Positions 10,301 to 61,300 of a stretch of 64,000 nucleotides of DNA are shown piece after piece. The notes beneath the pieces are model-generated. The model made no database searches and was not told where the DNA came from. It saw only the letters and a list, made by a program, of their open reading frames with translations. A program made the position numbers and the translations under genes. Origin of the DNA: Chondrosia reniformis (lineage: Eukaryota; Porifera; Demospongiae; Chondrillida; Chondrillidae); assembly GCA_947172415.1 (NCBI GenBank), contig OX359190.1, positions 10,044,001-10,108,000 on the forward strand, given 5' to 3'. Numbering within the stretch: position 1 is the stretch's first letter; every line of letters begins with the position of its first letter.

Positions 10301-13300
10301 TGCACAATCATTCCAAAGATACTCCGCAGCTAAACATAGAGAGTAGCTGTTTTATGATGCAAGAGCACTGCTCTGCCCACCGTAAATGTTGTTGCCTTCA
10401 AGGAGGCCACGCCCCCCTCCAAAGAAGTACACCCCCCCTTGTTGGCCATCACAGATCTCGTTCTCTTTCAGTGTCGGATCACTCTCTCCAGTGACCCACA
10501 CTCCAGCATACGTGTTAGAGTGGATCTTGTTCTGAATGAACTGACCATAGCCCTGTACAGACACAGAGGGAATTCCAAAGTATACTGAGGATATACAGGA
10601 ATATACAAAGTTATCCATCACTCACTTTCTCATGGATGTATACCCCACCGGTCTTGCCATGGTGGATGGTGTTCTTGTGGAACACCGGATCAGCTTTGTT
10701 CTTAATCTCAACTCCAGCAATCCTGTAAGTTAGAGGAGGCCAACAGAATAATACTGATAGTATAGGTAGGCAGATACACCTAAGTGATATACACATTCTG
10801 TCAATATCCCTACCTGTTGGAGTGAATATCATTTGATTCAATTCTGCCCTTGCCACTATCAAATACAAAGAAACCACAATCTCTTCCATGATGAACCTTA
10901 TTCCTGAAGAAGCGTGGGTTGGCATTAGACTTGATCCAAACGCCAGCCAGCTTGTTCTCGTGAATGTTGCATCCTTCAAACAGTCCCTGTGATGATGGAA
11001 AGGGTACAGTACTGCACAGCTCCACTTCGGCAATGAAGGACTGAGTGAAATATGGTTGAGCTAAACTTACCTCTGCTCCATCCTCAACAAATACTCCCAC
11101 ACACTTTGAGTTGGCAATCTCACATTTTCTGACTCGTGGTCTGGCTCTTGCTCCGTGGACGTACACGGCAGCTCCATCTGAACAGGAATGGATGGGTGGA
11201 TGGATGAGTGGGTGGGTGGATGGAGGGTTGGTGGATGGACGGGCGGGTGGATGGAGGGTGGGTGGATGGATGGGTGGGTGGATGGAGGGTGGCCGGGTGG
11301 ATGGAGGGTGGGTGGATGGATGGGCGGGTGGATGGGTGGATGGATGGGCGGGTGGATGGATGGGCGGGTGGATGGGTGGATGGGTGGGCAGATGGATGGG
11401 TGGGTGGATGGGCGGGTGGGTGGATGGATGGATGGGTAGATGGCTTATAAAAAGGCAGATTATAAAAAACTCACTAAAACTCTCATTTGTGATGGTGCAG
11501 TTCTCTATGATAGGCGATGCCTTTGGTTCACACTTTACAGTGTAGTTGTTCTGACCGGGACCAGCATTGTCTCCCTGTAGGACAAGAACTTCAGCATAAC
11601 TTGTGTGCATTTATCAATAGTATTAATATCAAGTCAAATAAAGGGACTTACCCTAAGAACAAAATTAATTAAGGCACTGTCTTTAGCCTCCTTTTCAAAC
11701 TTTATCAGATGTTCCCATTTACACTCCAAAACTATTTCACCTTCTCCATCTGGAATGGTAACAGATAACATTCACGGAATTTATCAATAAAGTAGTAGCC
11801 CTGGGCTCTTAACGGAAGCCAAGAGCACTAGTAATTACTTCATCACAGTTAAATTGGTTACACTAACCAATTAAAACAACATTGAGTGGTTGGTCTACAT
11901 TTGGCTAATGGCTCCCAATGGCAGAGTAATAGATATTCAGTGTTTTATCAACACACAATTATTGATAGCCAACACAAATCACACTCTTACCAGCTCCAAT
12001 AATGACCACTGGTCTATCCACTGTGATTGCACAATCATGGCCACTTTCTGATTTTGATTTGTGTACTACAATATACTGGTATGGGACTTCTGCAGCCTCT
12101 ATAGCTTCTTCAATAGTGGGGAAAACCCTCGAATTAGCAAGAGATGTACCAGCTGGATGGTCCACGGCATCTCTTACATGGAAAGCACCATGCTGGAGAA
12201 GGGTCAAAGGTCACATAATTTTGTACTTTCCAAAAATGTATTTTAAAGCAAAAATTCTACTCTGTTAATTAATTAGACCTGTCCGTCCTCACATACTTAC
12301 CATTACACTGAACTGTTCCTTCCAGGTTAGCGACAGAGGTACAGGATTGACAGGCTGGAAGGAACCCTTTGGATGAAAGTATGCCTGCTTGACTCCAAAT
12401 GTACTTGTAAATAGATCTTGCCAAAGCTTTGAATCGTTGGCTAGGCCATAAAACTTCCTACAGAGCATTTGAAACTGATAGTCATGGCAACCCTAGTGAT
12501 CTCATTACACATATATTGTACTATGTATATCAAAGAATTAAACTATTCCAAATTCTCTTTTACTGATAAGATAGTCTTCAATGATGACTTACTTGCACAC
12601 CAAAGATGCAGTACACAGATCTTGTTCATTGAGGTACGAAAATATGTGGAGCAGAATCTCATGAGGTAAGATAGAGTTGATATAAAGACTACTACTGAAA
12701 TGCAATCTACCATCCACATCATCACTGCTGTAATCCATCTTCATTTTCTTCTCTGGAGACTGAGTGAGGCAAAGGAATAGGTGGATGGATGGATGGATGG
12801 ATGGATGGATGGATGGATGAGTGGATGGATGGATGAGTGGATGGATGGATGAGTGGATGGATGGATGAGTGGATGGATGAGTGGATGGATGGATGAGTGG
12901 ATGGATGGATGAGTGGATGGGTCAATGGGTGTATGGATGGATGTTTGGCGAATAACAAGCATTCAGTCAAAACATGTTATGTAAAGGACCCAATTTGTAA
13001 GTGTTTAAATGCACAAATATTCACAGGTTTTACAGGAATTCATTAGTATTTGGTGCTAGTTTCCAGTTGTGTTCAATTTGTAGTGCTTCACAAGACATCA
13101 AGTGTGTGAGCAAAAGGATTCCTCAAATCACAATATGTGATGTTATAAAGGTGTACCTCCCAACCACCCCACCACAAATGACATAATGCAATATAACAGT
13201 CAACACAGTGCAAGGTAGCATTTCTGGAGTAATGTTATTAACAGCACAGAGAAGCTCTCTGGTAAGGAACACCTGTCAGCCAACCAGCTAACCCATACCT

Positions 13301-16929: not shown

Positions 16930-19900
16930 ATGGACTGGACAAAAGGATTTCAGTTTATTCCCTCAGACCGAGATGGCTTGTGGTTGGAGGAGCGAGTGGA
17001 GGACTTGAGGCAGGAAAAGACTGTCACTTCTCCACAAAGAGTAAGTTACTATATAACCATTGTACTGTGGCACGGATTAAGATTGTGCACTCTACAACTG
17101 AAGTTGCTTCAGAATAGTTCTTTAATGTGAGGTGTTCTCTTTAATTTTGCAGACTCAGGAGGAGATTGACAAATTGACCCTGGACGAGCACCTCTCTCCG
17201 ATTGACCGATCCATTGTCCTTGTCAAGTATGTCTGCTATTTTATGCAGTTCCTGCTACATGTTATGTGTATAAATTGGTGCTACATTGAAGAGGACTTCT
17301 TGTGCATGTTGACATGTGAACCTCTCTCTCCTCTGTGGGGAAGTTTGCATAATGCATGAGCTTTGATTGAAATGAATACCTCTATAGACCTCTGATCGAC
17401 CTTGTGAACCCTCTTTCCTTATTTGGCATTCTCCTAGATATCAAGTTCTGAATTACATTCTTAGCATTGCTGTTAAAATTAAATAGATTTTAATACTCAA
17501 TTTTATAAACCTTTGTCCACTGAGGTGTGTCATATAGGCTGATCAAGAAAAGATGAATGATATAGGCTATCCCTGAATGATATAGGCTATCCCTGAATGA
17601 TATAGGCTATCCCTGAATGATATAGGCTATCCTTGAATGATATAGGCTATCCCTGAATGATATAGGCTATCCCTGAATGATATAGGTTATCCTTGAATGA
17701 TATAGGCTATCCCTGAATGATATAGGCTATCCCTGAATGATATAGGCTATCCCTGGATGATATAGGCCATCCCTGAATGATATAGGCTATCCCTGAATGA
17801 TATAGGCTATCTCTGAATGATATAGGCTATCCCTGAATGATATAGGCTATCCCTGAATGATATAGGCTATCCCTGGATGATATAGGCCATCCCTGAATGA
17901 TATAGGCTATCCCTGAATGATATAGGCTATCCCTGAATGATATAGGCTATCCTTGAATGATATAGGCTATCCCTGAATGATATAGGCTATCCTTGAATGA
18001 TATAGGCTATCCCTGAATGATATAGGCTATCCTTGAATGATATAGGCTATCCCTGAATGATATAGGCTATCCCTGAATGATATAGGCTATCCCTGAATGA
18101 TATAGGCTATCCTTGAATGATATAGGCTATCCCTGAATGATATAGGCTATCCCTGAATGATATAGGTTATCCTTGAATGATATAGGCTATCCCTGAATGA
18201 TATAGGCTATCCCTGAATGATATAGGCTATCCCTGGATGATATAGGCCATCCCTGAATGATATAGGCTATCCCTGAATGATATAGGCTATCCCTGAATGA
18301 TATAGGCCATCCCTGGATGATATAGGCCATCCCTGAATGATATAGGCTATCCCTGAATGATATAGGCTATCCCTGAATGATATAGGCTATCCTTGAATGA
18401 TATAGGCTATCCCTGGATGATATAGGCTATCCTTGAATGATATAGGCTATCCCTGAATGATATAGGCTATCCCTGAATGATATAGGCTATCCCTGAATGA
18501 TATAGGCTATCCCTGAATGATATAGGCTATCCCTGAATGATATAGGCTATCCCTGAATGATATAGGCTATCCTTGAATGATATAGGCTATCCCTGAATGA
18601 TATAGGCTATCCTTGAATGATATAGGCTATCCCTGAATGATATAGGCTATCCTTGAATGATATAGGCTATCCCTGAATGATATAGGCTATCCCTGAATGA
18701 TATAGGTTATCCCTGAATGATATAGGCTATCCCTGAATGATATAGGCTATCCCTGAATGATATAGGCTATCCCTGGATGATATAGGCTATCCCTGAATGA
18801 TATAGGCTATCCCTGGATGATATAGGCTATCCTTGAATGATATAGGCTATCCCTGAATGATATAGGCCATCCCTGAATGATATAGGTTATCCTTCAATGA
18901 TATAGGCTATCCTTGAATGATATAGGCTATCCCTGAATGATATAGGCTATCCCTGAATGATATAGGCTATCCCTGAATGATATAGGTTATCCTTCAATGA
19001 TATAGGCTATCCCTGAATGATATAGGCTATCCCTGAATGATATAGGCTATCTCTGAATGATATAGGCTATCCCTGAATGATATAGGCTATCCTTGAATGA
19101 TATAGGCTATCCCTGGATGATATAGGCCATCCCTGAATGATATAGGTTATCCTTCAATGATATAGGCTATCCTTGAATGATATAGGCTATCCCTGAATGA
19201 TATAGGCTATCCCTGAATGATATAGGCTATCCCTGAATGATATAGGCTATCCCTGAATAATAAGCAGTATTTCAGACCTATTTAAACCTTATTCATGAGT
19301 TCAGTTAATTTGCTTTCCTCCTCTGAACTGACTGATACATCCACTGGCTCTAGACCATTTCCTGTCTCAACTTTTAATTAGATTCATAGTGATGATGGGC
19401 ATACGACAGTACACAAGGTGTTTATTTAAAGTAAATATTTTCCATGCCTATCTCAGCTAGTGACCAGCTATAAACACATACACGTATCTTGAGAATGACT
19501 TCATTAACCTGCAGCTTCTCAAAATTAAGGTGAAGTTTACCACACTTTTCTAAAAGCTTTCAATATTACTGTAAATGGGATTTAAGATTTGTATGAAAAT
19601 TATTGTGTCAACACATACCACAAATAGTATATTCATATCTATATACAATTACCTGATATATAGCATATAGTCCATCCATGTACGTATATTGTATGCCTCT
19701 TGTTCTTATTCTTGTTGAAATAAAACGCTCATTTAAAATATTGTGCTAACTATGATGATAGCCTAGAGATGAGGTATTGAGGTACGTACGTGAGTGTCCA
19801 TTGGAGAGGTGTTCTTCCGATTGTAGGGGACAACCATTACAGCAAGCCTGTGCCTTGTCCAGTCTGCCAGAACTCTTCAAAAAGCACCAAAAAGATTGTC

Positions 19901-25265: not shown

Positions 25266-28200
25266 TCACAGAGGAATTCCATTGGTCTCCAAGGAGAAGG
25301 GCCCTGCTCCTCCGCAAGCATTGCATGGAAACAACACCTACGCGTATATACAGTAATAGCACATGATTAACTGAACCACAAGTGTTAAAAGTCTCAACCA
25401 TCACACACTATATAGTATTGGTATATACTACATACGTATACACTACATAGTATTGGTATACACTACATATACACTACATAGTGCTGGTATACACTACATA
25501 GTGCTGGTATACACTACATAGTGCTGGTATATACTACATAGTGCTTACATAAGTGACATCATAGCTTACTTTTGGTTTGAACAATAAAAGTGAAATGATG
25601 ACTACATCTAAAAACACAAAGTAACAAAGCCACACCTTCCAGCTACCACAACATCCTCGCCTGGTACTCTTCAATCTGCAGGAGGGAAGAACAATACACA
25701 CATGTACACTACAAACATAGATTACAAGTCATGTGAGAGTCATGTGAGAGTCATGTGAGAGTCATGTGAGAGTCATGGGGGAGTCATGTGAGAGTCATGT
25801 GAGAGTCATGTGAGAGTCATGTGAGAGTCATGGGGGAGTCATGTGAGAGTCATGGGGGAGTCATGTGAGAGTCATGTGAGAGTCATGTGAGAGTCATGTG
25901 AGAGTCATGTGAGAGTCATGGGGGAGTCATGTGAGAGTCATGGGGGAGTCATGTGAGAGTCATGTGAGAGTCATGGGGGAGTCATGTGAGAGTCATGTGA
26001 GAGTCATGTGAGAAGTAGCCTGAGGTAGGAATGATGGTCACCATTGAATGAAACCTACTGCTTGTTCAGTTTGACAATTGTGTTATTTTGATCACGATTT
26101 CTTTCAGTTAAGTGGAGCACTCTGTACACAGCAGCAAATGAGGAGAACAGGTCGCATGAAGCGCCTGCTGTAATACCGAGAATTAGAACACTCACCTTGC
26201 TTCCAGGACTGTTCTCTGTCTAGCATTTTCCAAGGCTAGATTCCTCCACCTTACCTCAAGAGCTTCACTGTCCTGGAATGCTACAGACAACTTCTCCTTT
26301 AGCTCTTCAAAGGTTTCAACTACACACAGTACATCAGCAAGATGTCACTAAGCACAGCTATACATTGAGTGTGTGTACATACTCAGACTGTCCCTCTCTT
26401 TGATAATATCAGCAACTGACTCTCTCTCTGACTCCACGTCTTCCACTGACAAAGGATAGTCTCTGATTCTGTAGATCAGTGGCTCCTTCTGGTCCATTGC
26501 AAACTGGTGCTCCTGCAGAGATGGATGGATGGGTGGATAGGTGGGTGGATGGGTGGATGGGTGGATGGGTGGATGGGTGGGTGGATGGGTGGATGGGTGG
26601 ATGGGTGGATGGGTGGATAGGTGGGTGGATGGGTGGATGGGTGGATGGGTGGATGGGTGGATGGGTGGATGGATGGATGGGTGGATAGGTGGGTGGATGG
26701 GTGGATGGGTGGATGGGTGGATGGGTGGATGGGTGGATAGGTGGGTGGATGGGTGGATGGGTGGATGGGTGGATAGGTGGGTGGATGGGTGGATGGGTGG
26801 ATGACTTTCTCACTCTAAATCTCTTCACAAAAGGGGTGGGGTCCGCTGTTGTATCTAGGAGACCAAACTCTTCAATATCGCAAATCACTCCTTTCTTGAA
26901 CGGGCCAATCCAATTCTGTGCGGCCACCACTGCTTCCATGTACTCCTCCCAACTTTTCACTCTGATAAGACACAACCACAACCATCACATCAAAGGTTGA
27001 TGTAAACACACACAACCTGACAGCAGACACACCTGTCAAAGTACTTGTCTAGCTTGAAGACAACTTCCTTTAACTTGTGGCCAATCTCCTCCAACTTACC
27101 CCTCTCAGCTTGAACTGGGGAAGAGTCGCCAAAGAGAAGAACATCCTTGTCCTTTTCCAGAGAGGCCAAGTCTCTCTCAGCCACACCAGTCTTCTTTTCA
27201 AGTGCCTACAGTTGAAGGAGAACGATATACTCACTAGCTTTTGTTCTGCCAAACGGAAGCAACAACTAATACACATTCAAATATAATGACGCACTTCCAA
27301 GTTCCTTCTGAATTCTGGCAGATCTGGCAGAAAATCACCAATCGGACTTGAATCTATTCCAATGACCATTCTGTGGTTAACGTCATCAGCTGTCTGATAG
27401 AGGGCATACAAGTTGTCCTTATAACTCAACCACAGCTGCATCTTCTCTGTCAAGCCACCGGTCCACTCTGTAACCAGAGGCGAGAGGTCCTTAGTTTCAG
27501 TGAGAGCACTGTCACAAGCCTCCATCAATCTAGTTGGTACCTAAAACATTTGGCAGGAAGAATATACTGAGTTATACAGAGATAAACATATAAATAACAT
27601 GAGAATATACTGAGTTATACAGAGATAAACATATAAATAACATGAGAATATACTGAGTTATACTGAGTTATACAATGAGCATACCACAACACCTTGGTTC
27701 TTTGCCTTGTTCCTTGCCTTCTTGAGAGCATTCCACTTCTCCTTTGTGGAAGCGACAAGAGATTTGTTGAAGGATAGGAGTGCCTCATGCTGCAGCTCCA
27801 GCTGTGGTCCCGGAAGGGGCGGGGCTTGAAGGAGGTTCCTGGGAGGTAATAGAGAGGTATGGATATCAACACTAAAGCAAGAGCTATTCAACAGAATACA
27901 ACACAAAGTCACACATTACCCACAGAGGCCATTTTAATGAGACAAGACAAAAGTTGTCAGTAAATAGACCATCTCTTAGATGGCTTGCCCAAATTGCTAT
28001 CAAATTTTCAAAAAATGAATTTTTAAAGAAACTACAGCTGCAAGCATTCCAACCTGTGCTGTGTGACTGCCTTCTTCAGGTCTGCTAGTTTCTGCTCCAA
28101 ATCAGACACAACTTCAAAGGCTCTTTTGTATTCTTCCAGTTTGCTCTTTAGAGATTCCTGAACTTCTGCCCACTTTCTATTTAAATGGTCTGTTACCATG

Positions 28201-34200: not shown

Positions 34201-37200
34201 TTTGTTGAGCAACGCTGATGGAAGAATTGAAAGGTTTGTTTCTTCTTGCTCGTGTATCTCAAGGTGATGTTTGAGGTCAGCCATGTTTTCTTTGACACCT
34301 TCAAGAAACTTACTTACTTCAGCTGTGGCATCAAGATAGGTCGACCAAGTGTCCATTAACATGGCAAGCCTGGAGATAACCTAGAATATACAAGAATATA
34401 CAACACCTGGGGATAGGTAATATACTAACCTGAGTGGTACAGTATACTAACCTGAGTGGTACAGTATACTAACCTGAGTGGTACAGTATACTAACCTGAG
34501 TGGTGAGCATATCAATGGAAGCAGCCTGCTTTCTGAGTTCTGGGACAGTGCTCTGGTAAATCTGAAGCTTTCCATACAAGTGAGCTGTTTCCTCATTATC
34601 CACAGTAGCCGATGACAAGTGCTGAGATATCTCATTCATGTGGTCCATTTCAAACTTGAGCTCTGAAAGTCTAGTTTCAGTAAAGTATGACTGCAGACAT
34701 ATGGAACGTGTGAGGTAGCTTATCATAGTGTAACCATGGTTACACACTCAATGTACTGCAGTGTGGTGTGGCACTAACTATCACTTTTGTATACTTACAC
34801 TGAATTGGGCAAGTTCATGTTTGACGTTGTCCAATGTACCAGCAAACTGTAGGCTGGCGTTGCACCTCCCCACGTCCCCGTTCACCATCCCCCACACCCT
34901 CTCCACCTCCACACAGCTCTCCAACAGCCTCTCAACATTGTTATTGTCGGGTACCAGCTGTGCCCACCTGTCTACAAGAGCCTTTACATCCTCTTCCGTT
35001 AACTTGGGAGCAATGCCAGGGGAAAGTCCCCTACCCTCAGCAACCTGTTCTGCTATAGGAGAGCCAACTCCTCCAGAGCTGCTCTGAGAAACCTCCGGAG
35101 GAACCGGACTGGCAGCATCATCCGGAGAGAAGACGCGTTGCTGGAGCTTGGAAAGTAGATAATCCTTCTTGTTATCAAAGACAGAAAGTGTCTCTTCAGT
35201 AAAGTAGCCCTACAAGTGTATAGAAGAATGACACAGATACACTTCAGCTGAAAAATGAATATCAACCACACAAAAGTGAGGATCCTATACAACATGACAC
35301 TACTATAAAATGGCCGCCCTATTCCTCATGTCTAACTGCATGTGTGTGTATACTATAGAATTACTCTTAAAGTCCCCAACTGTAATTTTAGTCCTTGTAG
35401 AGATTTAGATGTTGCCATGACAACAGGAACAGGCAGGCTGTTCACTTCATCTTTGGCATCCATCAGTAGACTTTCTCCGTCTTCCACCATTGACAAGATA
35501 GCTTGCCAGGTCGTGTCAATCAAGTCCCTGTGTTCCTAAAGCAATTAAATGTACACACAGATACACACACAGATACACACACATACACACAGATACACAC
35601 ACATACACACACATACACACACGTACACACAGATACACTCTTACTTGTGACAGTGCTTCACAACTGGCAGTAATGTTGTCATTCACCAGCTGCCACTGGT
35701 GTTCCACCTCCTGGAGGTCACCAGCAAATGACTCACTGTTCTGGATCCTGCCAGAGTCAATCAACTTCCTCCCGAACAAGATCAGTCTGTCAAACTTTGG
35801 CTTCACTTTGAGCAATCTCTTCTTGTGGTCCTACGCACAACAGAGCACACAAGAGATGTTTAACAACCTTAGCTTGAAAGGCGATGAAACAAACCCTGTA
35901 TTTCTTTAAAACACTCTGATCTTCCAAAGTGCTTTGAATGGGATCTCTTGGTAACTTGCCATTCATCTTTGTGATGAATGTCAGCACCTCCTGATATACC
36001 TGCAGAATTGACCTGATATTTTAAAAATCTAGTATATTCTAGTAAACTCAAAACACTAGAAATTCCTGCATACTGAAACATGCACATTACCTCAATGTAC
36101 TCATTCCAGTATCCAACCACTTCTTTAACTTCAATTTCAAATTGCTCCAATTTCTGGCAAAGCCGGACCCAACCAGATTTTAGTTCCTCCATCTTGTTGT
36201 CAATGGCAACCGTTGCCTCCTCAACAGCTCCCTGTGCCTGCATATCATTGGCTGTCGACAGGATCTCCTCCAACTCCAGCTGCTTGTCATCACAGGCCTC
36301 TATCAAACCCTTCAAACGAGTGCAGAGAGTAGATATAAGACGAATGTAGGAATTCTGTGCATGGAATCATTAACTAAATTAGTTGAGCTATCTTAAAAAG
36401 GCGTGGCAGGGTGGGCGGGGCTTGTGCATCAACTTATGTATGGACAATCGCATTAGTAATGGTTTCTATGGTAACTGAACTAACCAAGATGGCATTGTAC
36501 AGTGTCTCCGCCTCCTTGACAGTTGTACCAAAAAACTCCCGATCCACCACAGTCTCAGAAGTGCTGACCCATTCAGAGAAGCTGGCACAAGTTGCATTTA
36601 GCCTCTCCCAATTGGTTATTCCTTCCTTTAGAAACTCCTCCACTCTCCGAGCCTGTAAAGCATGTACACACCCCTTTACACATGTACACACCCCTTTACA
36701 CATGTACACACCCCTTTACACATGCACACACCCCTTTACACATGTTCACACCCCTTTACACATGCACACACCCCTTTACACATGTACACACCCCTTTACA
36801 CATGCACACACCCCTTTACATACGTACACACCCCTTTACATACGTACACACCCCTTTACACATGTACACACCCCTTTACACATGTACACACCCCTTTACA
36901 CATGCACACACCCCTTTACACATGTTCACACCCCTTTACACATGCACACACCCCTTTACACATGTACACACCCCTTTACACATGCACACACCCCTTTACA
37001 TACGTACACACCCCTTTACATACGTACACACCCCTTTACACATGTACACACCCCTTTACACATGTACACACCCCTTTACACATGCACACACCCCTTTACA
37101 CATGTTCACACCCCTTTACACATGCACACACCCCTTTACATACGTACACACCCCTTTACACATGTACACACCCCTTTACACATGTTCACACCCCTTTACA

Positions 37201-38939
37201 CATGTACACACCCCTTTACACATGCACACACCCCTTTACACATGTTCACACCCCTTTACATACGTACACACCCCTTTACATACGTACACAGCCCTTTACA
37301 TACGTACTTCAGAACACAAGTTTTCGTAATCATCTTTAATGTCTTGTAAGTACTGCCGCACTTCCTCTGAATTGGGGGCTCCCAGCTCAATGTACTTTTC
37401 AGCTGAGGAGCTGAGAATAGATATGCCTTTGGAGACTTTGTCTTCAAATTCCATCGTGTAGAAGAATTCCTGTTGGAGGGATAAAGTGCAGTTGGAGACA
37501 CGACCATTAGTGGGTAGGTGTGGCTGGGGGTGTGGCTGGGGGTGTGGCCAGCTGTGGGGGTGTGGCTGTACATACCTGAAGACCTTCTCTTGCTACCTTC
37601 ATAGGATCCAACAACTGATAGTTTACTGGTAATTCACGCAGTTCATTCCACGCCTCTTCAATCAGTTCACCAATCAGCTACACAGAGAAAGACTTCCATA
37701 TATAGACATGTTTACATATTTATATACTTCCATATATAGACATATTTCCATATATAGACATATTTACATGCTTCCATATATAGACATATTTACATGCTTC
37801 CATATATAGACTTAAGTGGCAGCAGAGAAGTACAATTATAATTGTAACTAACAAAGCGATTGTGTTGGTAGTCCAACTGTGCTATTCTCAACTGAATTTG
37901 ACCATGAAGAGGTTCCGAGTTTGATTTCAAATTTTCCAATCTTTTCTTTAACTCAGAAGCAGAACTTGAATCCAATATACTTCTTACTAATCGTCCAACG
38001 ACCAACACCTTTTGAATCTTGTGGCCTTGAGAATCCACAGTTGTTAAACATTTCTAGAGAAAGTGAGAAATATGACTGGAGTACAGGAAGAGGACAAGGA
38101 GGAGGGAGAGAGGTAGAGGGAGAGGGGGAGGGGGAGGGAGAGGGGGAGAGGGGGAGAGGGGGAGAGGGGGAGGGGGAGAGGGGGAGGGGAGAGGGGGAGA
38201 GGGGGAGGGGGAGAGGGGGAGAGGGGGAGGGGAGAGGATTCCAACCAACCTTAAGAGCATTCAACAGTGCCTCCGACTCTAATATAGGAACAGAGGAATG
38301 CTCCTCCTCTGTAGACTCCTCCTTCTCTTGTTCTGTCTCTGTTCGCATCTGAAGCATTATCTGTGTCTCCTCAATCCAGTCCTCAACTTCCTTCAAGTTT
38401 ACAAAGAATTGCTCCTTTTTATCATCGTACAAAGACTGCAGGCTGTCAATTTCAGATCTACAGTCTAGGAAGGTGAATTTGGTAGCATGGATCATAAAGA
38501 AGTGGGCGTGGCTGGAGGCAATGGGTGTGTAGACTGTACAGTTCCACCCACTTACCTTCATCAGCCTTTAGCAGCTTCTCCCTTGTGCCCTTCGCATCCT
38601 TCACCAGCTGAACATGATTCTCCAACCAACTGTCAGAAAATAGGCAGAATTAACAGAGAGGGAGAGAGGGAGAGGGAGAGAGGGAGGGAGGGAGAGGGAG
38701 GGAGGGAGAGAGAGAGGGAGGGAGAGAGAGAGGAGAGAGAGAGGGAGGGAGGGAGAGAGGGAGGGAGAGAGAGAGGAGAGAGAGAGAGAGAGGGAGGGAG
38801 AGAGGGAGGGAGGGAGGGAGGGAGGGAGAGGGAGAGAGGGAGGGAGGGAGAGGGAGGGAGGGAAGGAGGGAGAGAGTAGGTCATGTAACACTGAATAACA
38901 AGATAAAAATAAATCAGCTAGCATACCTGTCATCCAACA

Positions 38940-38971
<32 letters not shown>

Positions 38972-41263
38972 CCGCTGTCGTTAGGTGACATAGAGAGAGA
39001 CCTTCTGCTCTTCTCATCCAGCACACGGATACTCACCCTCTCCGTTCCTGGACTAGTTCCTGCGGCTCTTGTGACCTCCTATGAGGAGCACACATCTGTG
39101 GCGGGCACCAATTAGGTAGCGCTGGTACTCACCTGCGTCACTTGAGCTGAGGGCAATTCTGAGGGCAGAGGTGCCGCAATGCTGTACTTTGACCTCTGAA
39201 CCTTAACCATTAATGGAGGGGGAATTCCCAGGATGACCTCATTGTCCTTAGTCATTTCATAAAGCTCCTTCAAAGCACTCTGTGTTACACAACAATGGAA
39301 TGCTATACCTTAGCGACTGATGATCTAATCTTAGATTGTTTTAAAAACAGGGTCATATTACAGGACTCATGTTAAACGTTCATGCCCACAAGGTACCTCT
39401 AATTGTGGAAAGTAGAGAATATCTATTTGAGGAAATGTTTACAAACCTCTAATTCTCCTTTTTTCTTCTCCAAGGTTGAAAAATCTTCAAAACCTTCGGC
39501 CATCTTGTCATCTTTGAGCAATTTTATGATCCTTCTGAGAGCTTCTCCGATCATGTTGAGGTTTCTCTGGGACATGGAGTCCAACTGCTTATAAATCCTT
39601 CCTTCCTTGTTGACCAGCTTTCTAATCATCTCTCTAAATTTTTCCTTGAAGGCCTGGATTCTGATGGACCCTTCCATGGTCACCCAGATTGTATGAGGGG
39701 CTGTCGGGTCTTCTTGTTGCTCTTCTGTTCCCGCGTCAGGAGAGGATGAACGACTTTTTGAGTCTAACACCACATTGGTAAAGTCTCTAACTTCCCAAAG
39801 TCGAGCCTACAAGTCAAAATATATACAGTACACATGGGTGGATGGGTGGATGGATAGTAGGATGGGTGGGTGGATGGGTGGGTGGATGGGTGGATGGGTG
39901 GATGGGTGGATGGGTGGATGGGTGGATGGATGGGTGGATGGTAGGATGGGTGGATGGGTGGATGGGTGGATGGGTGGATGGGTGGATGGAGTTTGTACCT
40001 ACTTGTATAGTTTCAATATTCTTTAGCAGTAACCTCTCGTTCACGCCATGTGGTAAAGCTGTTTCAAGGTCTTTCTTTGCATTTTGTATCCAAACAAATA
40101 GATCTCCTTGAAATGTCGGAGATCCAACTCGTGTAGTTTCTACAACAATACACAAGTACACTATGGTAAGTACGTATAAAGCAGTAGCCAAGTATAATTA
40201 TACACAACAGCAGGTAAGTATATTAATATAAAAATATGGACATTACACATATATTATGATATAGTAGTTATTGAAGATACTTTTACATAGTAATTGTTTC
40301 CAGGGAAACCAAGAACAAAATCAACTACGCGCATTTAGGTTGCTTAGCAACCGGTGTTAGCCAGCCAGTGGAACCTGGGATGTGCTTAGCAACCAGTGGG
40401 ATGTGCTTAGCAACCAATGTACTTGTGGTACACCTCAATCTATTAATGCATCTCAATTGACTAATCTACTTCTGCTCCAAATAATTAAGCAAATAATTTA
40501 CACAACTCAATTGAATTAGTTTGACCCATTAAATGTTATCAAAATGGATCAATTTCTCTGAAAGGTTTCCATAGCAACAGAGCACTTCAGTAATATTACT
40601 CAGGTAATCACTAGAGCTCTCAGGTAGTCACTGGAGCTCTCAGGTAGTCACTGAAGCTCTCAGGTAGTGACTAGAGCTCTCAGGTAGTCACTAGAGCTCT
40701 CAGGTAGTCACTGGAGCTCTCAGGTAGTCACTGGAGCTCTCAGGTAGTATAGCTTACCTTTGCTGGGCTTTAGGTAAAACGGCATGATTCAGATTCTCCT
40801 CAAACAATCGGTAATTCGAGTCTTCGAGACGATTCGACCAATCTCACTGTAGTCTCTTCCATTACCCTCGAATGCAATTCGTATGAAATAATAATAGCTC
40901 TTTCAATAGAGCAATTTATGAGTTTCCGAGTACACAAAAATCGCTATTATTCTGTATGAGAGGATGGTATCCCAGTTAGGAACCAGCACGACTAGGTTAA
41001 CTCGTAGAAGGAAATCAACAGGGGGCGTCTCTTTACATAAAATTTAGCAAGATTAAACTATCGCTTCACTTTATCCTAATCGCACTGCATTAGCTGAGAC
41101 TCATAATACGGCGTATTAAGCCCAAGATACTACGGATATCGACTGATGATAGGACCTATTCTCTGTTACTGAGGAAACGATCAGGTTCACCTTCCCAAAT
41201 CAGCCATAATAAAGGTCATTACTTACGACTCTGTTCCAACGACGGAGGACTCCCTTCAGCCAT
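25266..41263 (-). CDS. Nesprin-like giant spectrin-repeat protein with C-terminal KASH domain
   Basis: About 40 minus-strand exons encode roughly 2,450 aa. Phase-checked examples: first exons 41227-41263 ([12 protein letters not shown]) or 40758-40785 (MPFYLKPSK), then 40003-40139, 39447-39806, 39133-39279, 38927-39078, 38556-38629, 38250-38464, 37853-38053, 37576-37677, 37308-37469, 36485-36652, 36091-36354 and 35895-35999. Long exons follow at about 33220-33976 and 30977-31416. The end is 26383-26513, 26196-26319, 25570-25675 and 25266-25337. The body is alpha-helical spectrin-type repeat throughout, with Trp-anchored heptads ([19 protein letters not shown]). The C-terminus has a membrane segment ([18 protein letters not shown]) and a 27-residue lumenal peptide ending ETNGIPL, like vertebrate nesprin TNGPPPL. 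The family sits in the outer nuclear membrane and binds SUN proteins. No calponin-homology pair is visible in this gene. Confidence 0.82.
25408..25545. repeat. Short tandem repeat, about 20-bp unit, in the last nesprin intron
   Basis: Repeats of GTGCTGGTATACACTACATA and variants between the membrane-segment exon (25570-25675) and the final KASH exon (25266-25337). Confidence 0.85.
25727..26014. repeat. 11-bp minisatellite AGTCATGTGAG / AGTCATGGGGG
   Basis: About 26 head-to-tail 11-mers in a nesprin intron, mixing a GTGAG and a GGGGG form. It lies just upstream, in the transcript sense, of the membrane-segment exon (25570-25675). Confidence 0.95.
26519..26806. repeat. GGATGGGT array filling a nesprin intron
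   Basis: The 8-bp unit GGATGGGT (with GGATAGGT variants) fills nearly all of the intron between the exon at about 26811-26961 and exon 26383-26513. The sense strand is C-rich, and the array abuts the acceptor at 26514. Confidence 0.96.
27561..27672. repeat. 43-bp direct repeat, about 2.5 copies
   Basis: AATATACTGAGTTATACAGA followed by GATAAACATATAAATAACATG, repeated in a nesprin intron. Confidence 0.85.
31662..31711. repeat. CTT microsatellite
   Basis: A T tract followed by about 13 CTT units in the 1.3-kb nesprin intron between exons 30977-31416 and about 32754-32888. Confidence 0.95.
32202..32575. repeat. Perfect 175-bp inverted repeat with a 24-bp loop
   Basis: The left arm 32202-32376 is the exact reverse complement of the right arm 32401-32575; I compared the arms base by base and found no mismatch. 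The loop is 32377-32400. The pairing breaks at once outside the arms. It lies inside the 1.3-kb nesprin intron. No open frame, target-site duplication or known element end is clear. It could be a very young foldback element, a recent inverted duplication, or an assembly or cloning artefact. Confidence 0.95.
34421..34506. repeat. 22-bp repeat that duplicates a splice donor
   Basis: Four units, on the sense (minus) strand CAGGTTAGTATACTGTACCA plus CT. The first copy forms the exon end at 34496 (CAG|GTTAGT). Identical donors follow at 22-bp steps (34474, 34452 and 34430). Confidence 0.9.
35545..35642. repeat. CACA/GATACACA microsatellite
   Basis: Simple repeat filling the nesprin intron between exons at about 35646-35830 and 35396-35535. 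Confidence 0.9.
36661..37307. repeat. 20-bp minisatellite with 180-bp higher-order period
   Basis: About 32 units of CATGTACACACCCCTTTACA. Variant heads (CATGCA, CATGTT, TACGTA) recur in the same order every nine units, so 36721-36900, 36901-37080 and 37081 onward form an 180-bp higher-order repeat. The array fills the intron between nesprin exons 37308-37469 and 36485-36652. The donor GTACGT at 37302-37307 is itself part of a repeat unit. Confidence 0.97.
38086..38238. repeat. Purine/pyrimidine array (GGGGAGAG) in a nesprin intron
   Basis: Strict G/A on the plus strand, so strict C/T on the sense strand. It lies about 32 bp upstream of the acceptor of exon 37853-38053. Mirror symmetry and G-runs could allow triplex or quadruplex structures. 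Confidence 0.95.
38653..38878. repeat. GGGAGGGAGAG array in a nesprin intron
   Basis: A second G/A array. The sense strand is C/T, and the array ends about 22 bp before the acceptor of exon 38556-38629. Confidence 0.95.
39834..39992. repeat. GGATGGGT array in a nesprin intron
   Basis: The array occupies most of the intron between exons 40003-40139 and 39447-39806, ending about 27 bp from the acceptor at 39807. The sense strand is C-rich. Confidence 0.95.
40598..40750. repeat. 20-bp repeat CTCTCAGGTAGTCACTGGAG, about 8 copies
   Basis: The array sits directly after the donor of the MPFYLKPSK first exon (40758) of the nesprin gene, inside its first intron. Single-base variants (TGGAG, TAGAG, TGAAG) distinguish the units. 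Confidence 0.95.
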
Positions 41264-45200: not shown

Positions 45201-46866
45201 TTGGTCAACCAGCCCTTCATGATGACTCCGTTTACCATGTGGTCCACCAGATCCCCAATCAGTTCACAGGTCAACTCCGTGTTCACCTTACTACACAACA
45301 AAGGTGATATGGGACAGGGTGGGTGTGACCTAATGGGACAGGGTGGGTGTGACCTAATGGGACAGGGTGGGTGTGACCTAATGGGACAGGGTGGGTGTGA
45401 CCTAATGGGACAGGGTGGGTGTGGCCTAATGGGACAGGGTGGGCGTGGCCTAATGGGACAGGGTGGGCGTGACCTAATGGGACAGGGTGGGCGTGACCTA
45501 ATGGGACAGGGTGGGCGTGGTGGCTTGGGTGGGCGGTATTGAGATTAGAAGACTTACAGACTAGCAAAGTATTCACAAATTAGAGCAAGAAATTCAGGAA
45601 AGTTAACAAAATCTCTTCCTTCTGCCGTGTATTCGTGTTTGTTTGGGTTCCATATAAAGCCCGCCATCTTTATCATCTTCTCCAGAAATGTGTTGACTTG
45701 ACCAACCTTTAGTACAAATAGACTCACATAATTTATATGCAGTTGCACACATACAAACATGTATTAAGTCAGGTTCTTAATGAGTTAACCACATCTAACA
45801 ACATACAAAGATTATAATTACAAATTTCAGATTATCTTTACACTTAAACCTTTAACAACAGATATGTAGTACCACTGCTACAGCAAGCCCTTAGCAACAG
45901 ATATGTAGTACCACTGCTACAGGCTACCTCTAAATCTGTTGTATCCTCTCCAAGGAGAAGCTGATTGTAAATGAGAAACAGTCGATAAGTGCACTCTGGA
46001 CTGAGCCACTTGAGGTGCTCCACTGCCTTCCTCTTCTCCATCTGATAATACTTCCAACATAGTCTAAGGAACAGTATAAATATAATATAAATCATATCAA
46101 AGGTACTCATATGCTGCTAGTATACCTCCTGATTGCGTCATTGTTCAGTGTACAGTTGAACTTTTTTGCCCAATTGACCAGTGCATCTGACAACTTCATA
46201 GTGAGATCCCAGGGAGTGTGAGCTCCTAACGTGAATGGGTGAGTGGGTGGATGGATGGATGGGCAGATGGACGGATGGATGGATGGGCAGATGGATGGAT
46301 GGATGGATGGGCAGATGGATGGATGGATGGGTGGATGAATGGATGGATGGATGGATGGATGGATGGATGGGTGGATGGGTGGATGGGTGGATGGGTGGAT
46401 GGGTGGATGGGTGGATGGGTGGATGGGTGGATGGGTGGATGGGTGGATGGATGGATGGATGGGTGGATATTAACCTGAATAATATCTTTGTAGATCAATG
46501 TCACTGATCAGTGGTTCGGGGGACAGACTAGTGGTTGAACTCTTTCTCCCTTTTGAAGGGGGCTGTAGCTGATTTAAGTGATTTTGTAGGTCTTTGAGAA
46601 ACTTTTCAACATTTCCAGCTCCGCTGCTCCTCTGGATAATCTCATACATTACCTAATACCGTAGAGTACATCATGACAAGAGAATGACGAGGTCAAAGAA
46701 ACTTTTCTTCTGATAAACTAACTGTTAGCATGTGAAGAGCACATCTCTTTGAAATGTCTTCTAATAACATGTCTTCATCCTCCACATCTGCTGTTCTCTC
46801 AAGTTGCAGATGTAGGTCCAGGGCACCTTGAGTGTTGAGATTTACCCTCTCGGGCTTCTCTGCCAT
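42268..46866 (-). CDS. PH-domain adaptor A, SWAP-70/DEF6-like, with tyrosine docking tail
   Basis: Twelve exons: 46723-46866, 46475-46652, 46126-46225, 45928-46063, 45558-45712, 45104-45290, about 44703-44774, 44525-44619, 44229-44339, 43863-43982, about 43128-43389 and 42268-42979. The N-terminus is helical and EF-hand-like ([18 protein letters not shown]). A PH domain follows: [52 protein letters not shown]. The tail is acidic and low-complexity, with an eight-fold SPKDSHLK repeat. Candidate phosphotyrosine sites include NYMTMM and LYVPMM (YxxM, the PI3K p85 SH2 type), DYENW (YxN, Grb2 type), VYEEM and a terminal NYIDIK. SWAP-70 proteins bind phosphoinositides and signal to actin through Rac; here that role is inferred from the PH domain only. 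Clearly related to adaptor B at 55-61 kb. Confidence 0.72.
42813..42972. repeat. 24-bp coding repeat (SPKDSHLK), about 7-8 copies
   Basis: Units of CTTTAGGTGACTTTGGGTGA plus CTAT on the plus strand, in frame in the last exon of adaptor A. Each unit gives Ser-Pro-Lys/Gln-Asp-Ser-His-Leu/Pro-Lys and so a proline-directed Ser site. Confidence 0.93.
43408..43857. repeat. 19-bp minisatellite (CCACACCCCCTTACTCTAA)
   Basis: About 23 units with CTTGC/CTAGC and CCCACTCA variants, filling the adaptor A intron between exons 43863-43982 and about 43128-43389. The sense strand is G-rich (AGTAAGGGGGTGTGG), and every unit has a GTAAG. Confidence 0.95.
44923..45089. repeat. 28-29-bp minisatellite, about 6 copies
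   Basis: ACACAAGTGTACTCCCCAAC plus ATCATTAAG units, beginning about 15 bp beyond the donor of the first PH exon (45104-45290) of adaptor A. Confidence 0.95.
45303..45528. repeat. 22-23-bp minisatellite, about 10 copies
   Basis: GGTGTGACCTAATGGGACAG units (GGCGTGG variants at the right end) in the adaptor A intron, just upstream of the acceptor of exon 45104-45290. Confidence 0.95.
46230..46470. repeat. GGATGGGT/GGATGGATGGGC array in an adaptor A intron
   Basis: The array fills the intron between exons 46475-46652 and 46126-46225 and abuts the acceptor at 46226. The sense strand is C-rich. Confidence 0.95.
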
Positions 46867-46891
46867 CCTACCACCTGGCAGACTACACTAC

Positions 46892-47850: not shown

Positions 47851-50800
47851 TTAATTCCAAGTCCAGCTCTGCCAATCAATATTGAGTTTTGCTAAATCTC
47901 TTTTGTGACTATCGATCCAGCCCTGAATGTACAGCTTTTGAGTATCAGTGTACGGAAAATCTGACTCCATACTGGATCTCTTGTATTGATCATTTTGCTA
48001 TGAATGGATGGATAGATGGGTGGATGGATAGATGGATGGATGAATGGGTGGATGGATGGAGAGTGGCAGTATATTTTGACAATACCTGGTTTAGTATACA
48101 CTTTAACTTTTCTTCATTAATGGTTTGATTTAAAAATTTCAATACGCCTCTTAATTCTGATTCCAAGTTGACCTTCAATTTCTCATATTGAAGAAAATAA
48201 ACTGGAACCTAACCAAAGAGTAGACAAATTGGATAAACAGATCCTAATTGCTATTCCTAAATGATCATACTACTTAATTGCATACAAATGTACACATGCC
48301 ATTGAACCCCATTTTGCTGTGAAGGAATTTACAAATACCCAATCATTCATAGCAAATTTTGAATACTTTTAGAACCAAGTTTACAAAATAAAGTCATACA
48401 AAGACACTATATTACACACTGCTGAAAAAGTAAATATTAAACAAATGGACATACCGTTGAATTCTCTACATAATATTCCCAAATCCACTCCCATCTGCTC
48501 TTGTAAGTGGCAAACAGCTTGTCGGGAATGCGGACACTTTCTATCATATCATCATACAAAGAGAAGGATCAAGGAGTACGTACTGTAGGTACTGAAATGA
48601 TTTTGGTCTTACTTCTAGTGAGTCCCTTTGTATGGCTTCCCGTGGCCATCCAGCGGTAGTACGAGAGGAAGGCATGCCAGGGATTTCTGAATAGAAGCAC
48701 CACTGCATCAAAGTTTCCGTTTCCCTCGTGTGTCTTTATGACCAGTGTCCTAGTACTGGTTGTAGGCTCACTTTCCCCAAAGAACCCGGTACACCTGTCA
48801 CCAGATAGACATGTACAAAATGAGTAACTTCAGCCCTCGCAAGGCATATAAATGAGAGCGTGGTATAGCTAGAGTTATAGAAATAAGCCATTTATTTATA
48901 GCTGTATATATGAAATGACACCATTGAAAACACTATCTGCGGCATCTGTTGTTCAAAGCTTAGTGTAACGTCTGAGATAATACCACTAATGTTCTTCATT
49001 AAGTCAATTTTTGATACAAAATGTGCTTTTAGTAAAAGTTGCTACTGCTGGATATTGAGAGATTTCAACTATCAAATATTACCTATAAACGTATAACATT
49101 TATACAGTAAACACTTCTATAAGAATTTTCAATACATGGTACAGTTAGTATTGTAGTAGCTAGATAAGCTAAAATGGCCGACAGGATGGGAACTCAAGGA
49201 GAGAAGAATGGTTGTACATGTCACAATAGGTTTGTGCAGTACTTTAATGTCTTGTCATCGTAGACGGATCCAGTCAATATTCCGGTGACCTCCTCCAACA
49301 GCAACCTCATCCAAGTGTTACCAGAGCCCGGGTAACTAGCCAGCGCCACCCTCTTGTCTGATTCTCCATCGTCATGGAAACGCATGTCTTCATATTGAGT
49401 GCAGTGCCTCTCTGTTAAAGGCTTATATCTTGAATATACTGAACACTCTAGAAAATTAATAAAGAACAATAAAATTGTTCCTAAAAGCTATCCTATGTCT
49501 GTAATATGAAATGTAATATGAAAAGCTATCCTATGTCTGTAATATGAAAAGCTATCCTATGTCTGTAATAGGAAAAGCTATCCTATGTCTGTAATATGAA
49601 AAGCTATCCTATGTCTGTAATATGAAAAGCTATCCTATGCCTGTAATATGAAAAGCTATCCTATGCCTGTAATATGAAAAGCTATCCTATGTCTGTAATA
49701 TGAAAAGCTATCCTATGTCTGTAATAGGAAAAATACTCTGCTTACCACTTAAGCGTATTCCTAATTTGCCCTGCATCTTTATAAAGAAGGCAGATCTCTC
49801 TTGTATCACATTATTTGGAAGTGGCTAATGGACATACAAATGAGATTACAAATGAGGCAAATGTTTAGTAACATGTAATGGTGCCTTTTTAATGCCTTTA
49901 GGGAAGTGAAGGTACTTAAAGTGGGTAACCATAACAACCAGGCTAGGATAAAAGTGGTCTTAAAGTAATCCCTTCGTGTTTATCTATGCATCCCATAATA
50001 GATAACCATCCCATATGTAAACAACCCCTTAAAGTACGAGACCATAAGAATTTCACTATTTGATTGGAACACATCAGTTGTTGAGGTAAATGTACAAATG
50101 TATACACAAATCAGAGCTCTGCTTATATAGAAATACACTACTATTTAGTTTCAATATTAAACTGTAGGCTGCATCCAAAAATAGATTGTTATTTGAACAT
50201 GACTATTTTGCTATAATGTGTTTCACTGTCAACTTCAAGTCTGTCTCTCTTAAACACTTTGTGTGCGCCTAGGTTGGTCTAGCATTATTAACATGGCTTT
50301 GAAAGAGTAATTGAAGTGCAACTCTACAGTGAAGCCAAAACCCTAAGTGTCAGCCATTTGTTGACAGATATAATAGGAAGCCATATAAAAGTGGTGATAA
50401 GAAAATGTCAGAACCGACAAAAGAGAAACAGGTGTTACAATTACCAACCTTCAATGAAAGTTTAGTTACAGCTGAAGGGGGTGTGGTTGCCTTTGAAGTG
50501 ATCATAGTTGGGGGCGTGGTCTTTACACTTTCGGGTTCAGTCTTGCTCTTTACTCTGGGGGGCATGGTATATGCTTTTGGGGGCGTGGTCTTTGCTGTTG
50601 GGGGCGTGGTATATGCTTTTGGGGGTGTGGTCTTTGCTGTTGGGGGCGTGGTCTTTGCATGTAAGAAGATGTCCTCTATAATTAAAGATGCTTCAGCTGA
50701 TAACACTGATCTTTCCTTTGCTACGGAAAGTACATCTGAAAGCGGGAAAGATGAGAGAAGAATGTAATTGCTATTAGCCAAAGTATGGACATAACAACAC

Positions 50801-52403: not shown

Positions 52404-52541
52404 TCCTAACCACAAACAATAGCCCATCTTCCCAGGAGACGGCCAAACAGCTCTCAATAGAGGGTTCCTTGTTTGCACACATGTGACACGACCTTTCAAT
52501 TCAATGTATTATTGGCAACATACAAGTTGTAGGAAGTTATA

Positions 52542-53261: not shown

Positions 53262-53406
53262 TTTCTCTTCATTTATATTGTTAAATCATGCATGTTATAA
53301 TACAAAAACACTCGTAAAATATTCTCTATTTATTATACTAGGTAAATGGTCTACTGCATGTCTTGTATACGAACGTTACAATAGCCTTTGTTACCTGTAG
53401 AGGCTG
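53262..53406. promoter_or_regulatory. Divergent TTC36 / LRRC57 promoter region
   Basis: 145 bp between divergent start codons, the shortest such gap in the window. AT-rich, no clear TATA box. Both transcripts must start within it or within the first codons. Confidence 0.5.
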
Positions 53407-55130: not shown

Positions 55131-55305
55131 TGATGTGAAGAAGTGAATTATTGTACATATTTGTTGTTGTACTACTGTTCATGCTGGTTCGAATAAATGA
55201 TGGACGACTCACGCAAGACGCGTCTCACGTGATGCTTCCGTGACCCGAAGGAAGGAATACGACGGTTGTTGTGGAATAGATCTAATTTGTAATCGTTCGG
55301 AAGGA

Positions 55306-58300: not shown

Positions 58301-61300
58301 GGAAGATTCCGCGTGACATGTGGAAGTAAAAACACTGCTACTGACATAGTTACAAGTGACTCTGCCTCGGCAGTCTCCTGGGTGAAGGCAATTCAGTTGG
58401 TGAGCAAACATCTCTCCTTTGTGAGGCATACCATCCACCCATCCATCCAGCCATCCATCCATCCATCCATCCATCCATCTATCCCTCTCTTAGGCTATCA
58501 ACTTTCACAAGGTGGAAGGAAGGAATTTCCTTCACAGACTGGGTCAGGCAAGAAAGTTATCTTCCGAAGACTCTTCTATTCCTTTTTCCGCAGAACCCCT
58601 AACCTCACCCACCAGTAGTGCAAGCGACCTTCGACCTCAAATGTCCAGTAACCTACCTCCCAAAATAGCATCCAGTAAGTGTAGCACAGGTAACCTGTAT
58701 TGTCCATGTAGCACAGGTAACCTGTATTGTCCATGTAGCACAGGTAACCTGTATTGTCCATGTAGCACAGGTAACCTGTATTGTCCATGTAGCACAGGTA
58801 ACCTGTATTGTCCATGTAGCACAGGTAACCTGTATTGTCCATGTAGCACAGGTAACCTGTATTGTCCATGTAGCACAGGTAACCTGTATTGTCCATGTAG
58901 CACAGGTAACCTGTATTGTCCATGTAGCACAGGTAACCTGTATTGTCCATGTAGCACAGGTAACCTGTATTGTCCATGTAGCACAGATAACCTGTATTGT
59001 CCATGTAGCACAGGTAACCTGTATTGTCCATGTAGCACAGGTAACCTCTATTGTCCATGTAGCACAGGTAACCTGTATTGTCCACGTAGCACAGGTAACC
59101 TGTATTGTCCACGTAGCACAGGTAACCTCTATTGTCCATGTAGCACAGGTAACCTGTATTGTCCATGTAGCACAGGTAACCTGTATTGTCCTTGTAGCAC
59201 AGGTAACCTGTATTGTCCATATTTAGAGTCAGACCGAAAACCTGTGGCACACTCTTATGAAGACTTAGATGTTGTTGATGAAATGGTTGCTAAAATGAAA
59301 GTTACTCGAAAGGGATCATCTCCGGACCCTTTGAGCACCAGCAGAGAGGATGGAGGGAGGCAGTTCAAGAAGAGCAGTGATCCTGGACACATTCCTGAGA
59401 GCAGTAACCCACCACTCCTCCCCCCAAAGACAAGGGCTGAACCAGTCCAAGAATTAAATTATGTAGATCTTAAATTCAAGGATGTTCCTGTTGCCACGAC
59501 AACAGTAAGTGATGAGCTGCTATGTATTTAGCTCTTATGAATTCTAACTGTTTGTACAGAATATACTAGTATAGTAGCAGTTATACTGGAATATACTGGA
59601 TTATTAGATAGTACTGTACTATGCAGGGTAAAAAGGCAATTATCAGCAAAGTGGAGGAAGTGGAGTACTTTGATGTCAACCGCATTGCAAAGCTGTCAGC
59701 TGTGGTAAACAAATAGCCCCTGTGTATAAATATCTACAGCAGAAGGATTGAACAAGGAGTCAGTGACTTTATCTTTTCCGTTTACAGGAAAAGGAAGACA
59801 GTGATGCCAAACCTCCGGCTGTTAAGCCCAGAAGGAATCTACCCCAGGGAGAAGAGAAAGTGACAAGTGGCAAAGGAGCTATCCCTAAGGATGGAGAGTA
59901 TATCAACTTAACATCTTTAGAACAAGTACATTATTAGCATAGCTTCTGTCTTGTATTCTAAAAATCGTAGTTTAACAATTTCTCTTTGGTCATGTGATGA
60001 TCATGTGATTGTATGCCATGTATCTCACTTGATTTAGATTGTGCATACTTCAAAGGCCTCTCCTGGCTCATCTCCTCAAGACAAGCCAATGGAGATTGTT
60101 CATGGGTAAGTCCTGCTAATACTGATACAAGGAAGCTATTGTGGAGAGATGGTAATTATAGTCTAGTGTAGCTTGTGATGGTCATGTGATGGTCATGTGA
60201 TGGTCATGTGATTGCTGTTGTGCAGGAAACCTTTTAAGAGGGAGCCCTCTAAAGATGGAGACTATGTAGGTCTGAACTTCAAAGGAAAGGTCTGTGTGGT
60301 GTATCTCTCCCATAGTAGGGTCTTTATTGATTTGTCTGTCTCCTAGGCAACAGACAGCGAGGCACCACGTCCTATCCGAGAGCACAGCCCTATTCCTTCT
60401 CACAAATTCAAGGTACACACACTCATTGGTTAGCTGTAGTTTCAGGTTTTCTACTAATCTAAAGTGTTCTTAATATCCTGAGAAATTCAATATTATAATT
60501 ATACATTATTAATGTGTTCTCCCTCCCTCAGAGTCACTCTGTTGATGTAGAGGTTAAGGAAAGACCGATGATGGTCATTGACAGTAGCAGAGTGTAAGCA
60601 TTTACGGATTGAATTATGTTCCAAATTATTCTTTTAACTAAAATCTGTGAAATGCAACTGAAATGAGAAATTATATTGAGTGATTAACTTTCCCTTTTTG
60701 GTAACTTAGCCATTTTGTTGTTAATTGTATTCATTGATTTGCAGTTCTTCAAAAGGTGATGGCGAGTACATAGGGCTGTCCTTTGACAGCCCTCAGGGTA
60801 AGCTCGCTGCAAAGGGACAGTCTTCTCCTATTTTAATTGCTAGGAAGAAACATCATTCAAAAGAAGATACTTCCCTTTTAGCTCCAAAAGTGCCTGCAGT
60901 CAGAGAGAGACCTCATTCCTCAGTGATCCCAAGAGGTCAGCTACCACCCATATCTGGCCCAGACACCTAGATTGTATAAGGCCTACCCATATCTGGCCCA
61001 GACACCTAGATTGTATAAGGCCTACCCATATCTGGCCCAGACACCTAGATTGTATAAGGCCTACCCATATCTGGCCCAGACACCTAGATTGTATAAGGCC
61101 TACCCATATCTGGCCCAGACATTAAAGTTCTTAATAGTATGCATTGCATTTCTCTTTGCATAGAATCAGAATACATTAACATACTTCCTGAAGAGGCTTC
61201 CCGGAAATCCCACAAGGGTAACCATGACTACCTAATGCTCCTACCAGGGGAAAAAGGAAGTTCCTCAGGGACTAAAAGATCGGACAATAAAGATTATATA

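Follow-up and report, generated by a model that had tools for sequence, protein, structure and literature searches.

The stretch analysed here, called the window throughout, comprises 64,000 nucleotides of the sponge Chondrosia reniformis (contig OX359190.1, positions 10,044,001 to 10,108,000; C2:10044001-10108000, on a C2 of 10.29 Mb), and it holds seven CCAT/CCAC tandem arrays in predicted introns of five genes: an FBXO11-like gene, a long minus-strand gene that we take to be spectrin-like although Pfam gave no match for it, an unnamed gene near 46.2 kb, a sulfotransferase gene and a PH-domain gene. The arrays are listed below; d5 is the distance from donor to array and d3 that from array to acceptor, in nucleotides (nt).

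11188..11443, minus strand: C-rich-sense CCAT/CCAC array filling the FBXO11-like intron 11178-11474; d5 37, d3 8
12782..12943, minus strand: C-rich-sense array of the FBXO11-like gene, 20-22 nt before the acceptor at 12760; acceptor clear, donor not established
26520..26803, minus strand: C-rich-sense array filling intron 26513-26813 of the presumed spectrin-like gene; d5 10, d3 6
39834..39989, minus strand: C-rich-sense array filling intron 39807-40002 of the same gene; d5 11, d3 27
46244..46468, minus strand: C-rich-sense array filling intron 46226-46474 of the unnamed gene; d5 6, d3 17
48000..48060, minus strand: C-rich-sense array in the sulfotransferase intron 47998-48085; d5 24, d3 2
58431..58484, plus strand: C-rich-sense array in the PH-domain gene intron 58421-58493; d5 9, d3 9

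A preliminary description of the window had placed seven such arrays in introns of five genes, with the C-rich strand in sense and each array ending within about 30 bp of the acceptor. All of this was confirmed. Tandem Repeats Finder (TRF) recovered the seven arrays at the positions described, direct reading and a gene model both placed all seven in introns, and the C-rich strand was the sense strand in every case. The distances to the acceptor, in order from 11188, were 8, 20, 6, 27, 17, 2 and 9 nt, or 10, 22, 7, 27, 5, 2 and 9 nt when TRF set the array limits, and where a donor was assigned, in six introns, d5 was 6-37 nt. For six of the seven introns the joined exons were open when the best of the three frames was taken, and Pfam recognized an F-box in the FBXO11-like gene (in the exon downstream of the 12782 array), a sulfotransferase and a PH domain. 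The final model missed the last exon of the sulfotransferase gene; its acceptor was taken from an earlier run, which over-split exons, together with reading and the open join. The PH-domain intron has a second candidate donor at 58400 (GTGAGC), and the spliced FBXO11 peptide of the window had no match among solved structures. Seven of seven in one orientation has a chance of 1/64, or about 1/16 when counted by gene.

The preliminary description had also named a genome-wide strand count as a check, and we made this count on a sample from the assembly, which totals 117.38 Mb in 14 large contigs and a further one of 17,451 bases. The sequence CCATCCATCCATCCATCCATD occurs 157 times in the genome; the 100 occurrences listed, from C1 to part of C7, represent about 65 distinct places, of which 58 were fetched together with L001; the seven left over comprise the array of the window itself and probable duplicates. 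We selected sites on the listing alone, before looking at their context. Strand and introns were called with a simple gene model self-trained on the sequence, which combined frame-specific Markov coding scores with matrices for donor and acceptor, the latter restricted to -4..+1, so that pyrimidine tracts did not enter the choice of strand; tandem repeats were masked. Three versions were modelled for each locus, with the array constrained to lie in an intron in sense, in an intron in antisense, or between genes. Merging ten paralogous loci (L048, L068, L050, L053, L051, L052, L077, L079, L081 and L083) left 49 non-redundant loci.

The array was C-rich in sense at 37 of these loci and G-rich in sense at four (L028, L061, L078 and L080; 37:4, p=1.0e-7), and eight received no call (L034, L036, L037, L058, L060, L069, L074 and L084); few arrays in the sample were identified as intergenic. 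The orientation bias of the window thus holds in the genome sample, which is far from 50:50. The ratio depends on a score cut-off of 8, fixed after the scores were known, and on three loci at which Pfam overrode the model in favour of sense (L029, L031 and L041, that at L031 contrary to the model); with the cut-off kept and the overrides dropped, it was 34:5. Pfam supported the orientation at 18 sense loci (L029, L031, L032, L035, L038, L040, L041, L042, L044, L045, L049, L056, L059, L070, L073, L076, L082 and L085, of which L045 and L082 are NUP210-like genes) and three antisense loci (L028, a kinase; L061, a nucleoside transporter; L078, fn3). Four of these, L029, L044, L049 and L061, fall under the Pfam cut-off, and excluding them gives 15:2 (p=0.0023). 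Pfam was mostly given the open reading frame (ORF) of the winning strand; opposite-strand ORFs, also submitted for 20 C-rich-sense and four G-rich-sense loci, gave no match at E 0.01 for the former and none for the latter. At the antisense loci, the orientation of L080 comes from the model alone and that of L078 from a domain about 220 nt away from the array.

A whole-genome search that used no annotation pointed in the same direction. GTAAGT followed within 30 nt by CCATCCATCCAT gave 20 hits in about 12 arrays (11 when a similar pair on C14 is merged), whereas GTAAGT followed by GGATGGATGGAT gave three hits in two arrays. At the other end, TTNCAG within 30 nt of the array end was found for six C-rich arrays and one G-rich array, which alone is not significant (p=0.125). 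GTGAGT was discarded as a donor for this test, since G-rich arrays generate it themselves; it adjoins or falls inside them in 125 overlapping hits. The rule of orientation therefore stands as a strong tendency (37:4, 18:3 by Pfam, 12:2 beside GTAAGT) but is not absolute, given the G-rich-sense kinase locus and, on weaker evidence, the nucleoside transporter locus.

We then considered where the arrays lie within their introns, using the 43 introns with both ends assigned, six of them from the window. The preliminary description had held the acceptor side to be special, and this was not borne out, for donor distances were equally short both in the window and in the 43 introns. Median d5 was 25 nt and median d3 27 nt (Wilcoxon p=0.32), 24 of 43 arrays lay within 30 nt of the donor and 24 within 30 nt of the acceptor, the nearer end was the acceptor in 17 and the donor in 25, and relative placement was compatible with a uniform distribution (Kolmogorov-Smirnov (KS) p=0.30). 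Our first array limits extend into degenerate units, and the counts were therefore repeated with TRF limits. The limits matter: d3 at L044 was 4 nt by ours and 41 by TRF, the opposite was seen at L071 (32 and 5), and L029 has no TRF array; the acceptor of L047 was reset by hand. By TRF, the medians were 27 and 29.5 nt, 22 of 42 arrays lay within 30 nt on either side, and the acceptor was nearer in 20 and the donor in 22 (p=0.66). Array length ranged from 54 to 701 nt among the window arrays and those called sense (first-limit lengths start at 33 nt), and the intron that remained once the CCAT array was subtracted had a median of only 59 nt, whereas generic arrays left a median of 309 nt (51 arrays, better-supported introns) or 136.5 nt (36 arrays, window). 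Closeness to the acceptor thus follows from arrays filling short introns; in nine of the 43 introns this does not hold, the array being over 60 nt away from the acceptor.

The preliminary description had further proposed that the arrays nucleate from the polypyrimidine tract of the acceptor and serve as extendable forms of it. That all seven window arrays end at most 27 nt from the acceptor, and 24 of 43 within 30 nt, is what such growth predicts, but the same number lie as close to the donor, the donor is more often the nearer end under either set of limits, and placement fits a uniform distribution. Growth specific to the acceptor was rejected on these equal distances, and we consider nucleation from the tract improbable. 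The related suggestion, that the arrays act as polypyrimidine or branch-site tracts, fared better: in 15 of 43 introns d3 was below 18 nt, so that the array occupies the site where branch and tract must be, but a tie of the arrays to the acceptor was not supported, and they show no preference for its side.

In those 15 introns (d3 1-17 nt; 14 of 42 by TRF), little lies between array and AG, and some introns consist of hardly anything but repeat. Examples of the latter, given as donor side, array and acceptor side, are as follows.

L073, transaldolase intron: 2 + 211 + 3 nt (TRF limits 2 + 210 + 4)
L085 intron: 6 + 137 + 3 nt (TRF limits 18 + 124 + 4)
L042, IDH3 intron: 7 + 230 + 10 nt
L064 intron: 12 + 112 + 6 nt (TRF limits 12 + 101 + 17)
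Window 26520 intron: 10 + 285 + 6 nt

Some of these arrays have degenerate ends, as the shifts at L085 and L064 show. Homology supports the splicing predicted for introns with an array: of five spliced peptides examined, four aligned without a gap across the splice junction, all of them from loci elsewhere in the genome, namely L042 with human IDH3 alpha, L056 with PAPS synthetase 1, L073 with a transaldolase and L076 with a RabGAP/TBC protein. Where fewer than 18 nt separate array and AG, the branch adenosine should lie within the repeat. The motif YTNAY was absent at -45..-14 in nine of the 15, compared with 32 of 77 predicted introns lacking an array, and no clear consensus emerged when the predicted introns without an array were searched for branch motifs. 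It is possible, though we put this forward tentatively, that the tetranucleotide repeat is a self-sufficient, length-tolerant intron, in which GT, many CCAT units and AG would be enough for splicing and branching would occur at any of dozens of equivalent CCAUCC/CCACCC adenosines, each a poor match to the consensus. If so, arrays in essential genes could lengthen and shorten freely and might seed new introns.

Duplicated genes show that length does change. Between copies with about 91-99.5% identity in the aligned flanks, the array occupies the same place in the intron but differs in length: 262, 242 and 226 nt in the ZIP transporter genes (L031, L048, L068), 347 and 544 in another pair, 197 and 463 in the TBC genes (L076, L077), and 460, 525, 396 and 215 in the NUP210-like genes (L045, L079, L081, L083; one pair aligned in the 3' flank only). 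The same comparison bears on the idea that an exonic or inserted CCAT array came to be spliced out and thereby founded some of the introns. The L073 intron, which is array but for five nucleotides, would fit such an origin, as would the finding that 36 of 44 arrays are free of stop codons in all three sense frames, so that retention would not terminate translation. However, what is left of the intron beside the array (median 59 nt) is like a normal short intron that holds an array, and all the duplicated genes carry the array at the shared place, leaving no empty site among them. We regard this origin as very improbable.

The two orientations differ strongly in what the RNA would contain. In 44 sense arrays (10,292 nt), AG occurred 14 times as transcribed and 260 times when the array was flipped, GT 88 and 550 times, and GTRnG once and 184 times. 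Mean folding energy per 100 nt was -0.19 as transcribed, -2.9 flipped, and -16.4 flipped with quadruplexes allowed. We lean modestly towards the view that only the C-rich RNA is tolerated as an intron body and that selection on splicing orients the intronic CCAT/CCAC arrays. The repeats would expand within short spliceosomal introns until much of the intron, or nearly all of it, was repeat, and mostly those copies would persist whose transcript is C-rich, because that RNA could serve as the intron body: it would offer few AG or GT dinucleotides mistakable for splice sites, little folding, pyrimidines, and an adenosine every four bases. Some of these adenosines would act as branch points where hardly any other intron sequence remains. 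A flipped array would present cryptic donors resembling GTGAGT or GTGGG, many AGs and quadruplex-prone runs, and would be eliminated unless the intron retained its own acceptor region. The exceptional kinase locus L028 has, in our own reading of its frame, a 35-nt pyrimidine-rich stretch between array and AG.

The orientation might also arise by mutation, with no role for splicing: G-rich RNA transcribed from a C-rich template could give rise to R-loops or quadruplexes, and these to deletion or breakage of the array, so that arrays with the C-rich strand in sense would survive or expand. The strong quadruplex potential of the flipped arrays (-16.4 as against -0.19) fits this, and the turnover in length between duplicated genes makes instability real. 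Among the other arrays, however, those with G>C and those with C>G in sense were equally common (24:23, and 4:4 at a C-G difference above 0.3), a pattern not expected of R-loops at large; a qualification in favour of the mutational account is that the very C-skewed arrays, with a difference above 0.5, were C-rich in sense in four of four cases. Introns overall are slightly richer in G than in C in sense (0.191 vs 0.172), which also speaks against it, and this general skew cannot account for C-rich sense arrays. We therefore think it rather unlikely that mutation rather than selection on splicing set the orientation.

Several observations weigh against selection on splicing as the orienting force, or against the strength of the bias itself. 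The sign of the model alone, the least favourable count, gave 37:11 with one zero (p=0.0002), and the model of strand is imperfect, having been wrong at the ZIP genes L031, L048 and L068, which were assigned to sense through Pfam (L031) and shared flanks. At L061, the G-rich array in the nucleoside transporter gene, the acceptor could not be established. The 51 generic minisatellites in better-supported introns show no orientation, as the 24:23 above indicates. AG depletion before the acceptor was weak in predicted array-free introns, so that model intron ends, and hence the generic control, are noisy. Beside GTAAGT, TG arrays outnumbered CA arrays by 22 to 4, a test confounded in the way of GTGAGT; by this excess other repeats may be stranded too (CCCT vs AGGG, at 3 to 1, were too few). 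The AG asymmetry may in part be a product of the mutation pattern of the unit. An AG-free intron is, moreover, not obligatory, because G-rich or AG-bearing repeats fill two predicted introns of the window: a 20-bp x 32 minisatellite at 36661-37300, G-rich in sense with AG in its unit (d5 7, d3 8), and a 27-bp x 20 minisatellite at 58680-59220 in the PH-domain gene intron 58675-59226 (d5 5, d3 6).

The generic arrays also showed no preference for a side (25:26 in the same 51), and the unfiltered set of 144 arrays, with the seven window CCAT arrays included, gave 66:73 for orientation and 67:77 for side; on these four counts a rule of orientation or side for minisatellites as a whole was dropped. 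Generic arrays close to acceptors (20) did not differ in pyrimidine or AG content from those close to donors (22).

Stranded intronic repeats have been described in other animals; the statements that follow pertain to the available part of each paper cited. In Daphnia, Drosophila and honeybee, the repeat motifs of introns are biased to one strand, and in Daphnia the sense strand carries more poly-T, CT and CTT than their reverse complements (PMC3152781). The sponge arrays likewise lie in introns and exceed their reverse complement in sense. Those counts are of short-motif density; in the available part they name no CCAT, report no introns of almost nothing but repeat and draw no connection to branch points, whereas some CCAT introns are nearly all repeat and would have the branch point inside the array. 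Human short tandem repeats show a T-rich gene-strand bias, tied to splicing variation and the polypyrimidine tract, and are enriched within 100 bp upstream of exons (PMC13174678). The strand bias relative to the gene is shared, but repeats with at least 50% G+C were excluded there, whereas the sponge repeats are rich in C, occupy the intron and lie no nearer to one splice site than to the other. Intron 5 of dog LHX3, 75 nt long and holding a short tandem repeat in six copies, the number of which affects splicing (PMC3223203), is likewise a short intron bearing a tandem repeat; it has a separate putative branch site and shortening is harmful through spacing, while the sponge arrays should sometimes contain the branch site. 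Tandem repeat and intron coincide also in introns with AG|GT dual-specific splice sites, such as those of UBC (PMC10809524). There the repeat unit carries the splice sites, whereas the CCAT/CCAC units have neither AG nor GT, and the 14 AG and 88 GT counted above stem from variant units. The unit of the 58680-59220 minisatellite, CACAG|GTAACC, contains an AG|GT motif resembling these sites. An intronic minisatellite of C. elegans has been connected with alternative splicing (PMC4039745).

Strand-biased intronic repeats are thus already known, and introns of almost nothing but repeat seem to be new: among the matches listed in the open-licence literature we recognized no account of introns almost wholly made of a tetranucleotide repeat, which is not proof of absence. 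We judged the sponge CCAT introns to belong to the same class as stranded intronic repeats, in a more extreme form in which the repeat is the intron body. If selection on splicing orients them, natural introns of conserved enzymes (transaldolase, IDH3) have had their interior cut to a four-base repeat, and they would provide a natural test of the minimal sequence for branch-site choice by the spliceosome and of repeat orientation within genes. Branch points would then be predicted to scatter over equivalent units, and an inverted array to fail to splice.

The arrays are unevenly distributed. By our own criterion, 19 ten-kb stretches contained no CCAT array, as against six or seven in the window, suggesting that the arrays cluster regionally. 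On C1-C6 they lean toward chromosome ends, where the outermost fifth holds 22 of 46 (KS p=0.0002; p=0.04 after thinning to 30 places), and the window itself lies at 10.04-10.11 of the 10.29 Mb of C2. Repeat content is very high in general: at a TRF score of 40, 77,878 of 257,020 bases were masked in the window, L001 and the 19 ten-kb stretches (L009-L027). Two long minisatellites also lie in the window, at 5032-6044 (15 bp x 67), where both strands have long open frames, and at 17554-19262 (20 bp x 85).

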